38,987 bases of DNA. Origin: Spirulina sp. SIO3F2. Its GTDB lineage: Bacteria > Cyanobacteriota > Cyanobacteriia > Cyanobacteriales > Spirulinaceae. The notes below the pieces were generated by a model. That model saw only the letters and a list, made by a program, of their open reading frames with translations. It made no database searches and was not told where the DNA came from. The stretch spans positions 1-38,987 of the forward strand of contig JAAHHN010000037.1 in the NCBI GenBank assembly GCA_010672165.1. Direction: 5' to 3'. A program made the translations under genes and the position numbers. Shown one piece after another: positions 7,364-23,437 of the stretch (position 1 is its first letter; each line of letters begins with the position of its first letter).

Positions 7364-7585
7364 GGTTGAGTGTTGGCGGGGCGCGAAATATCCTCAATGG
7401 TTAGCTATTGAGGGTGGACTGATGTTAGAGCGAGCAAAGAAGCACTGAATCCGACCCGACATGAGATGTGAATGCAGTTGATGGTGAGGAATAAAAGACA
7501 GTGGAGTGAGTTTGGTGGGGTGGGTAATTTGGGAATGCAAAGGAGTTTCAATTGGGAACCCATCCCTTCCAGTTTAGAGGCAACC

Positions 7586-7603
7586 ATTGTAACTAACTGT
7601 AAT
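7586..7603 (-). promoter_or_regulatory. HLR1-like RpaB-type site, proximal copy
   Basis: On the minus strand: ATTACAGT-TA-GTTACAAT. HLR1 is two direct repeats of (G/T)TTACA(T/A)(T/A) separated by 2 bp. The second repeat matches fully, the first has two mismatches, and spacing is exact. It lies about 220-240 bp upstream of the sigma ATG. Confidence 0.5.
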
Positions 7604-7629
7604 AATGGTTGCACTTCGCTCACAGTCGA

Positions 7630-7647
7630 TTTGTGAACAATTGTAAC
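7630..7647 (-). promoter_or_regulatory. HLR1-like RpaB-type site, distal copy
   Basis: On the minus strand: GTTACAAT-TG-TTCACAAA. The first octamer matches the HLR1 repeat fully, the second has one mismatch, and the 2-bp spacing is right. It is the better of the two sites in this upstream region. Confidence 0.55.
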
Positions 7648-7653
7648 ATTTCT

Positions 7654-7677
7654 GAGAGTCTGTGTCTACAGACTCTC
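7654..7677. promoter_or_regulatory. Perfect 10-bp inverted repeat upstream of sigma and ktrB
   Basis: GAGAGTCTGT and ACAGACTCTC flank a 4-base loop (GTCT). There is no T-run next to it, so it looks more like an operator or an RNA hairpin in a leader than a terminator. It starts 6 bp after the distal HLR1-like site. Confidence 0.45.
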
Positions 7678-7783
7678 ATTTGGTGCTGGAATATATTACA
7701 ATAATACTACATGAAGGTGGATTGTCAATCCCCAATCTCGATATACTGGCGACACAGAAACGCCGCTCTTTGCATCCTCGCCT

Positions 7784-9115
7784 ATGACCATTGCCCGTAC
7801 GATTTGCTTGGGCTTTGTTGCTGTTATCCTTCTGGGCACCAGTTTGTTAATGTTGCCCATTTCCGTGAGTACTGGTGAATGGAATTCGCCCCTAGTCGCT
7901 CTGTTTACCGCCACCTCAGCCGTTTGTGTAACAGGACTGATTGTGGTTGATACTGGCACCCATTTTTCAGTTTGGGGCCAGGCTTTTATTTTGGGACTGA
8001 TCCAGATTGGCGGCTTGGGGTATATGACCACCACCACCTTTTTGATGCTGATTTTGCGTCGGCGGTTTGACCTCCGCCAAAAAGTTGCGATTCAATCGTC
8101 GTTCGATCGCCCCTTCCGCCAAGGGAGTCGTCACCTCATGCGATCAATTTTGGCGGTGACATTAGCGTTTGAACTGCTGGGAACCCTAGGCTTATTCCGA
8201 ACCTTTGCCTCCCAATACGGTGTGGGTCAGGGTTTGTGGCTTGCCACGTTTCATAGCATCAGTGCTTGGAATAATGCAGGCTTTAGCTTGTTTCCTGACA
8301 GTCTGGTGCGATATTGCGGCCATTGGTGGGTCAACGGTGTGATTTGCGGTCTGATTATCTTGGGCGGCATTGGCTATCAAGTCATTTTGGAGCTGTTTTT
8401 GTGGGGACAGAGTTTACGTCGCCCGGTTCGACTCGGCTTCTCGTTGAACTTCAAGGTGGTGATGAGTACCACGTTATTTTTACTAGTACTCGGTTGGCTC
8501 GCTTTTGGCATTACTGAATTTCAAAATCCGATGACATTGGGGGGCCTTTCTGGGCCAGAGCAACTCCTCACCACTTTGTTTCAATCCGTAACAACCCGCA
8601 CCGCAGGCTTTAATACCTTAGACTTCGGTCAGATGGGCGATGCGGCACTCGTGGTTTCGTTGGGGCTAATGCTCATTGGGGCGAGTCCTAGCGGTACAGG
8701 TGGCGGGATCAAAACGACGACGCTGCGGATTTTGCTCAACTGCACTCGGTCAACTTTGCAGGGGCGAGAGCGAGCCGTGATGTATGGCCGAGCGCTCTCG
8801 AATACGTTGATCTTTAAAGCGATCGCGGTGTTGATGGGATCAGGTATCACAGTGGGTTTAGTCACTTTTCTGCTGGCGATGACTGAACCGCAGAAATTCC
8901 CCTTTCTCCACCTGCTGTTTGAAGCGGTTTCAGCGTTTGCCACCGTGGGTCTTTCGACAGGCATCACCGCCGACTTTTCCGCTTGGGGTCAGGGAATTTT
9001 GATCCTCACGATGTATATCGGTCGGGTAGGAATCTTGGTCTTTATTGCTGCCCTTATTGGTGATCCCTCACCTAGCCAAGTGCAATATCCCGAGGAGAAT
9101 CTGTTGGTGGGCTAA
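7784..9115 (+). CDS. ktrB: KtrB/TrkH-family potassium (or sodium-dependent potassium) uptake channel
   Basis: This 443-residue membrane protein has the four membrane-pore-membrane repeats of the Trk/Ktr superfamily. Selectivity-filter segments are visible: SAVCVTGLIVVDTG (about 45), SAWNNAGFSLFPDS (about 155), SVTTRTAGFNTLDF (about 270) and SAFATVGLSTGITADFS (about 385), each with the conserved filter Gly. KtrB forms the ion pathway and in cyanobacteria works with the regulator KtrA and sometimes KtrE; neither is beside it here. The ATG at 7784 gives MTIARTICLGFVAVIL, matching the usual first helix. No clear ribosome binding site precedes it. The upstream region is shared with the sigma factor gene. 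Confidence 0.93.
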   Translation: MTIARTICLGFVAVILLGTSLLMLPISVSTGEWNSPLVALFTATSAVCVTGLIVVDTGTHFSVWGQAFILGLIQIGGLGYMTTTTFLMLILRRRFDLRQKVAIQSSFDRPFRQGSRHLMRSILAVTLAFELLGTLGLFRTFASQYGVGQGLWLATFHSISAWNNAGFSLFPDSLVRYCGHWWVNGVICGLIILGGIGYQVILELFLWGQSLRRPVRLGFSLNFKVVMSTTLFLLVLGWLAFGITEFQNPMTLGGLSGPEQLLTTLFQSVTTRTAGFNTLDFGQMGDAALVVSLGLMLIGASPSGTGGGIKTTTLRILLNCTRSTLQGRERAVMYGRALSNTLIFKAIAVLMGSGITVGLVTFLLAMTEPQKFPFLHLLFEAVSAFATVGLSTGITADFSAWGQGILILTMYIGRVGILVFIAALIGDPSPSQVQYPEENLLVG

Positions 9116-22693: not shown

Positions 22694-23437
22694 GTGGATA
22701 ACCACAAGGGAAAAATCCTCGTGGTGGATGATGAACCAGCAGTGCGTCGTATCTTGACAACACGTCTGTCGATGGCTGGCTACATTATCACCACCGCCGC
22801 CGATGGTGAAGAAGCGATCGAAAAATTTGAGCTAGAATCACCAGATTTAGTCATTCTAGATGTCATGCTTCCCAAAGGAGATGGCTACCAGATTTGTGAG
22901 CAACTCCGAGCCACTTCTGAAGTTCCCATCATTATGCTGACGGCCCTATCCAATGTTGCGGATCGGATCGCTGGCCTCCAAATGGGAGCAGATGACTATC
23001 TGGTCAAACCCTTTTCACCAAAAGAATTAGAAGCTCGAATCAATACGATTTTGCGCCGCTTCAAGAAAGGGGAATTTCGGGATTCTGGTAGCAACGGCAC
23101 AGTTCAAGTCGGGAATCTGAGTGTGGATAGCAATCGTCGCCGCGTTTATATCGATGATCAGCTCATTCGCTTGACCGAAATTGAATTTAATGTGCTGCAA
23201 CTGTTGATCAATCAAGCAGGTGAGCCAATTTCACGAGCAGATATCCTAGAAGCCATTTGGGGCTATGCTCCTCGTCAACCTGGGGATTTGCGCCTTGTAG
23301 ATGTGCACATCTCCCGCCTCCGGGGCAAAATTGAAGCCGATCCGAAGCAGCCCGAATATATCATTACTGAGCGGGGTATGGGCTACTCGTTCCAGCGTTT
23401 CCCTGCCCTATCAACCGTTGCAGTTGCTGATCTATAG
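22694..23437 (+). CDS. OmpR/PhoB-family response regulator, RpaB (Ycf27)-like
   Basis: A 247-residue regulator. The receiver (residues 7-120) has acidic pair D12/D13, phospho-acceptor Asp56 (LVILDVMLPKGDGY), Thr84 and Lys106 (YLVKPFSPKELEARI). The C-terminal winged helix (135-235) includes LTEIEFNVLQLL and LVDVHISRLRGKIEADP. The start MDNHKGKILVVDDE and the KPFSPKELEARI block are those of RpaB, the high-light regulator, but it differs at many positions from the nearly invariant RpaB sequence (for example LQMGADDYLVKP versus LELGADDYVVKP). It may be an RpaB paralogue such as SrrA, which also pairs with kinase NblS in S. elongatus. The start is GTG. Its stop overlaps the converging 571-aa gene by 6 bp. 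Confidence 0.85.
   Translation: MDNHKGKILVVDDEPAVRRILTTRLSMAGYIITTAADGEEAIEKFELESPDLVILDVMLPKGDGYQICEQLRATSEVPIIMLTALSNVADRIAGLQMGADDYLVKPFSPKELEARINTILRRFKKGEFRDSGSNGTVQVGNLSVDSNRRRVYIDDQLIRLTEIEFNVLQLLINQAGEPISRADILEAIWGYAPRQPGDLRLVDVHISRLRGKIEADPKQPEYIITERGMGYSFQRFPALSTVAVADL

Follow-up and report, generated by a model that had tools for sequence, protein, structure and literature searches.

A putative RpaB operator of the HLR1 type before the sigD gene of Spirulina sp. SIO3F2 and before most cyanobacterial sigD genes sampled

We analyzed a 38,987-nt stretch of DNA from Spirulina sp. SIO3F2 (hereafter the window), which forms contig C301 of a 7.3-Mb genome in 453 contigs. In this window, a gene for a group 2 sigma factor and a gene for a TrkH-family potassium transporter are divergently transcribed from a shared 420-bp region, and an RpaB-like response regulator is encoded elsewhere. 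The positions of these genes and of the features between them, together with examples of a leader microprotein from other genomes, are listed in Table 1.

Table 1. Features of the window and examples of leader microprotein ORFs from other sigD loci
Feature	Position	Strand	Description and basis
sigD, group 2 sigma factor, SigD/RpoD3 type, 317 aa	6410..7363	minus	Curated model and tree
Predicted sigD leader, ~270 nt	7364..7633	minus	From predicted start
Inverted repeat GCAACCATT / AATGGTTGC	arms 7580-7588 and 7604-7612	.	Encloses site B; sequence and fold
HLR1-like site B	7586..7603	minus	ATTACAGTTAGTTACAAT; 2 + 0 mismatches; not conserved
HLR1 site A	7630..7647	minus	GTTACAATTGTTCACAAA; 0 + 1 mismatches to KTTACAWW octamers
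Predicted sigD promoter	7640..7668	minus	TAGACA (7668-7663), 17-bp spacer, extended -10 TG-T-TACAAT (7645-7640); independent promoter scan
Conserved 5' flank CTCTCAGAAAT	7648..7658	minus	Outside HLR1; strongly conserved before sigD (TYTCAKAAAT)
Palindrome GAGAGTCTG-N6-CAGACTCTC	7654..7677	.	Perfect 9-bp arms, over predicted -35 of sigD
Second predicted promoter	7701..7728	minus	TTGACA-16-TATTAT; further upstream, toward sigD; promoter scan
TrkH-family potassium transporter gene, divergent	7784..9115	plus	Profile; neighbour counts
RpaB-like response regulator, Spirulinaceae paralogue	22694..23437	plus	Profile, identity, trees
Microprotein examples in other loci	L029:1221-1352; L047:2724-2855; L162:1241-1384; L195:1279-1410; L235:941-1081		In sigD leaders, just after the HLR1 block

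The class of the sigma factor was examined using curated NCBIfam models and a phylogenetic tree. The protein scored 588.5 bits with the SigD model NF005642 (cut-off 524) and 503.3 bits, under the cut-off of 530, with NF004615 (PRK05949), which we take to be a SigB-type model by our own reading, its name being merely 'RNA polymerase sigma factor'. For a paralogue on contig C101 of the same genome the order is reversed (520.8 bits with NF005642, below 524, and 576.7 bits with NF004615, above 530). In a tree of 48 sigma proteins, whose bootstrap was not fully settled, the window sigma is placed in a 39-row SigD clade (support 96/94), together with Spirulinaceae relatives, one Synechocystis-type and two S. 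elongatus-type sigmas (identities presumed), and the C101 sigma lies in a separate clade (90/78). Both results support the SigD/RpoD3 assignment made by an earlier sequence-only reading of this DNA, which had proposed the phylogeny as a check.

Two HLR1-like sites, A and B, face the sigma gene. Each consists of paired KTTACAWW-type direct repeats with the exact 2-bp gap that defines HLR1 (0 + 1 mismatches in site A, 2 + 0 in site B), and they are the top two HLR1 matches of the whole window when both strands are scanned. Our re-count thus agrees with the sequence-only reading, which had described paired octamers at 7586-7647 with exact 2-bp spacing and at most one mismatch in three of the four. 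In 20,000 simulated sequences of the same dinucleotide make-up, a sense site with no more than one mismatch within 420 bp occurred with P = 0.00055. Across the whole genome, 32 matches with at most one mismatch were found versus 18 with a reversed control pattern, so the HLR1 motif by itself proves little. Site A stands above chance because it is conserved at the same gene in other genomes, and site B shows no such conservation.

To quantify this conservation, sigD upstreams were collected in two sets, set A with 92 rows after de-duplication and set B with 114 rows, gathered later and used as the held-out set. Upstreams shorter than 300 bases and rows sharing identical last 200 bases were dropped before counting. 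Set B was picked after set A had been seen; it spans many genera, some of them repeated (e.g. g133), and may include relatives of set-A members. The class-wide search gave no match at E <= 1e-132 in 106 of 290 genomes, and its sample covers genomes with a match. Within 500 bp upstream, sense HLR1 sites with at most one and at most two mismatches were present in 18 and 47 of the 92 set-A rows (0.13 and 1.68 expected from shuffles) and in 22 and 50 of the 114 set-B rows (0.10 and 1.80 expected), and antisense sites at the same thresholds were present in 2 and 10 rows of set A and 2 and 9 rows of set B. Antisense HLR1-like matches are also commoner than shuffles predict, and 14 of the 19 rows with such a match (at most two mismatches) carry the sense block as well.

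Site A forms part of a conserved 29-bp block, TYTCAKAAAT-GTTACAAT-NN-TTWAYAWW, which in the window reads CTCTCAGAAAT-GTTACAAT-TG-TTCACAAA; flank plus site A is unique to sigD in its own genome within 3 mismatches. A weight matrix of 29 columns was trained on the 47 set-A sites, with the 99% shuffle level taken as a pass. By this measure, 87 of the 114 held-out rows pass on the sense strand versus 23 of the same rows on the antisense strand; in set A, the corresponding figures are 86 of 92 (including the 47 that trained the matrix) and 18 of 92. Since about one in five upstreams passes on the antisense strand, far above 1%, the shuffle level is too kind, which makes the operator reading slightly less firm. 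The antisense excess perhaps arises in part because the block is a near dyad, and the excess of sense over antisense stays large. All 12 Spirulinaceae rows pass the matrix; nine of them trained it, so the independent figure is three of three, and two rows, L013 and L018, pass weakly (12.1). The family name follows from two of its genomes, whose compared sigD upstreams are identical to those of Spirulina sp. DLM2.Bin59 and Spirulina subsalsa FACHB-351. The thirteenth family genome, G011, which is 82% complete, gave no SigD-type match.

As controls, 40 SigB-type upstreams were scanned, and these contain no sense site with at most two mismatches, two antisense sites and two matrix passes. The type of these controls was taken from identity and rank, not assigned individually: 39 rank second among the sigma matches of their genome, behind a SigD match, and L334 (G051) is the sole match of its genome at E <= 1e-100; one control whose gene part for the orientation check contains a stop codon was kept. 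Another candidate control, a sister group comprising L104-L116 without L108 (0 of 12 with the site), was rejected as mixed, the tree placing L105, L107 and L113 inside SigD.

The second octamer was also examined separately. When held-out rows were picked on the left part of the block alone, a right octamer with at most two mismatches followed at the exact 2-bp gap in 55 of 79 rows versus 2.8% of random 8-mers, which indicates that the second octamer is conserved in its own right. Its consensus, TTAAYAWW, departs systematically from KTTACAWW (57 of the 79 rows have A and 17 have T at the third base); the second half is thus conserved and yet unlike the textbook HLR1 half. An early sequence logo was set aside because its pattern omitted the TCATAAAT class. 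A candidate third HLR1 half-site, seen by logo in the 5' flank about 11 bp upstream, is poor in the window itself.

By the matrix, the block was not found in 27 of the 114 held-out sigD upstreams, including those of two S. elongatus-type genomes, in which the nearest site has 4 mismatches. If these two genomes are indeed S. elongatus, in which control by RpaB was first demonstrated, the working site there lies far from the consensus. The sigma genes L105, L107, L113, L203 and L276, from Gloeomargarita-like and Geminocystis-like lineages, also have no block; the first four fall inside the SigD clade, and L276 is outside the sampling of the tree. These cases are apparently losses or earlier branches. 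Taken together, the comparisons support the view that site A is a conserved, HLR1-like putative operator element before most of the sigD genes sampled.

Further examination of the promoter region showed how site A overlaps the predicted start of sigD. An independent promoter scan places the start near 7633, and site A would cover approximately -14 to +4 relative to it; the -10 element falls within the first octamer, and the expected start within the second. A suitably spaced -35-like hexamer, matching at 4 or more of 6 positions, is present in 90 of 173 rows with the block versus 21.5% expected, and the leader in these rows has a median length of 257 nt (interquartile range 212-294). The window leader has no match in Rfam, and its predicted folding is unremarkable (z = -1.19), with the inverted repeat around site B folding as a hairpin in the predicted RNA. 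The second predicted promoter further upstream would escape cover by site A, and inspection by eye shows a comparable TGTAGTAT/TATTAT stretch, about equally far upstream, in the closest relatives (L008-L010). The palindrome over the predicted -35 occurs only once in the genome when up to 2 mismatches are allowed and was rejected as a dispersed repeat; it is not visible by eye in the upstreams of relatives that were inspected.

Two proteins of the genome are candidates for the regulator. Canonical RpaB is encoded on contig C14 (394.7 bits with the NCBIfam RpaB model), and the RpaB-like protein of the window scores 370.1 bits, above the cut-off of 330. The latter is 59% identical to the C14 protein, has partners of 72-80% identity in 9 of 12 family relatives (G001-G012) and is 56-62% identical to the other proteins compared. 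This paralogue was found in 10 of 13 family genomes including its own, evolves faster than canonical RpaB, and in G002 lies about 2 kb from sigD. In a tree of 30 rows, the canonical RpaB clade (19 rows, 100/100) includes the C14 protein, and the window protein belongs to a separate Spirulinaceae group of 10 rows. In a second tree with more distant rows, support for the two groups was weaker or the forks open, and no supported fork joins the window protein to the second copy of the S. elongatus-type genomes (candidate SrrA; identities presumed). No HLR1 site with at most two mismatches was found in the 500 bp before the paralogue gene. The sequence-only reading had suggested that the window's own RpaB-like protein might control the sigma gene; we did not adopt this suggestion, because canonical RpaB is present elsewhere in the genome and the paralogue groups apart from it. 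The DNA-recognition stretches of the paralogue and canonical RpaB are nearly the same by eye (LVDVHISRLRGK vs VVDVHISRLRAK), so both proteins might bind the site.

We also inspected 30 of the 32 HLR1 matches with at most one mismatch for which loci were available. ORFs that we recognised by eye, and presume to be psbA (L153), apcA (L138) and an HLIP-like gene (L154), follow within 450 nt of such a match, and most of the other matches precede ORFs without an assigned name. The presence of HLR1 matches before these three ORFs fits a working RpaB regulon.

According to a review, HLR1 sites located at -38 to +23 act in repression and those at -45 to -66 in activation, and rpoD3/sigD is summarised in reviews as repressed by RpaB in both PCC 7942 and PCC 6803. 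With the start as predicted, site A (about -14 to +4) would fall inside the published repression range, which fits repression lifted in high light. We consider it likely that site A is an RpaB operator on the sigD core promoter, keeping the gene off in low light and releasing it in high light. For Spirulina sp. SIO3F2, we infer RpaB binding, the light response and the sign of control, with RpaB control carried over from PCC 7942 and PCC 6803. In the proposed mechanism, phosphorylated canonical RpaB from contig C14 would occupy the two octamers in low or moderate light, lie over the extended -10 and the start, and keep RNA polymerase out. In high light, RpaB would be dephosphorylated and released, the TAGACA-17-TGT-TACAAT promoter would yield a sigD transcript whose leader is about 270 nt long, and RNA polymerase carrying SigD would then turn on high-light genes.

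The main rival follows from the conserved flank and the part of the right half that does not conform to HLR1, both of which could reflect contact by a second or different protein. The block would then serve specifically as the sigD operator of some other regulator, or of RpaB plus a second protein, with the flank TYTCAKAAAT and a partial dyad TGTTA-N7-TAACA as the true target, and the likeness to HLR1 would in part be a chance overlap with the -10. The strong conservation of the 5' flank, which HLR1 does not explain, speaks for it, as do the preference of the right octamer for TTAACA, which completes the dyad, the restriction of the block within 3 mismatches to sigD in its own genome, and the lack of the flank, by eye, in all 29 inspected flanks of other HLR1 matches of the genome. 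On the other hand, the window itself (TCACA) breaks the dyad, as do the TTTACA and TTAATA classes, while the 10-bp spacing of the direct repeats is kept, and the reviews report RpaB control of sigD for two model strains. We regard this reading as improbable. The probability is much smaller still that the block is simply a conserved core promoter, that is, an extended -10 and start region whose octamers have no regulatory meaning: TGTTACAAT is a perfect extended -10 frame and much of the first octamer is therefore promoter, but conservation extends beyond the -10 to the second octamer and the flank, and SigB-type upstreams do not carry the block (0 of 40 at up to two mismatches; 2 of 40 by matrix).

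The location of the sites in the divergent region shared with TrkH could suggest that they serve that gene instead of sigD, or both genes. However, among loci longer than 2.5 kb, TrkH is the neighbour in only 2 of 136 whereas the block is present in 120, with or without TrkH, which indicates that the block goes with sigD; moreover, sites in the sigD sense outnumber antisense ones (47 vs 10 of 92; 50 vs 9 of 114). The sites were rejected as TrkH elements, and we assign this possibility an almost negligible probability. A different proposal takes site B, the other HLR1-like site of the sequence-only reading, to be functional as well, so that RpaB bound at two sites would repress more strongly; this is compatible with the RpaB operator at site A. 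Site B lies on the same strand with exact octamer spacing, and a sense site with at most two mismatches inside 120 bp has P = 0.0024 in the same kind of simulation. Nevertheless, only 2 of 157 rows have another site in the 120 bp that follow the block, namely the window and, at another distance, L164. Site B would also extend over approximately +31 to +48 of the predicted start, with its centre near +40, outside the repression range of -38 to +23 given in the review, and it lies inside the inverted repeat, itself a possible cause of local constraint. A working role of site B is therefore doubtful in our view. The site is almost private to its own genome and may have arisen by chance; at most, it is a local accessory.

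In other lineages, a short ORF of 37-52 residues (typically about 45) was observed in 28 of 173 sigD leaders, and two more (L225 and L023) were identified by profile. In 25 of the 28, the ORF starts 39-52 nt from the first HLR1 base. The encoded microprotein is predicted to span the membrane once and carries a [VI]P[IV]PV[RK]-like (VPIPVR-like) motif at its C-terminus, span and motif being themselves the rule by which the set was selected. Pooled over 31 equal-length pairs, pN/pS comes to 0.34, and third codon positions account for 673 of 1190 differences; these pairs are non-independent, and most come from one Nodosilinea-like group. The pair L162/L168 shows no constraint. Overall, these values give signs of purifying selection on the microprotein. 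Five members scanned against Pfam and NCBIfam matched no family above the cut-off, and a literature search on small proteins in cyanobacterial sigD leaders returned nothing relevant by title or abstract start. The microprotein was found neither in the window nor in any of the 12 Spirulinaceae leaders; matches elsewhere in the genome of the window are weak, the best of them (E = 0.03) falling in a frame of 479 residues. The relative G001 gave a weak match (E = 0.003) in a 55-residue frame on a contig other than that of its sigD.

We tentatively put forward a broader possibility, which we hold to be rather unlikely at present: the sigD operator may be the whole 29 bp with HLR1 as one part, TYTCAKAAAT and the TTAAYA half providing an extra sigD-specific contact for a third RpaB protomer or a partner, and in some lineages the same operator may drive the leader microprotein. 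If so, sigD would, through the extra contact, be gated in a special way within the RpaB regulon, and in those lineages, which do not include that of the window, high light would release SigD along with a membrane partner.

The present analysis links an RpaB-type site to sigD: most of the sampled genes have it upstream in a constant promoter geometry, and SigB-type control genes are without it. It also provides a concrete 29-bp target for footprinting, tells canonical RpaB apart from the Spirulinaceae paralogue, and draws attention to an uncharacterised microprotein in sigD leaders.

Similar arrangements have been described in model strains. A review describes SrrA, an RpaB homologue of PCC 7942, as a second RpaB-like regulator, and the Spirulina genome likewise has a second RpaB-like protein; no supported fork, however, unites this window paralogue with the second copies from the S. 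elongatus-type genomes. The HLR1/RpaB-rpoD3 system of PCC 7942 (Seki et al. 2007, as summarised in reviews) likewise combines a SigD-type gene with an HLR1-type site at the start and a repression geometry, start and geometry being predicted ones for Spirulina. In PCC 7942, as summarised there, the site lies just downstream of the start, whereas site A of Spirulina overlaps the predicted -10; in addition, the two S. elongatus-type genomes (identity presumed) do not carry the 29-bp block, unlike the window. In PCC 6803, which belongs to another family, sigD is under RpaB (Riediger et al. 2019, as cited in a review), the same gene and regulator as proposed here, and a Synechocystis-type genome (G187; identity presumed) has the block at -270. 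The Spirulina locus is thus a good new example of the known RpaB switch rather than a new system, with an extension that this switch leaves unexplained.
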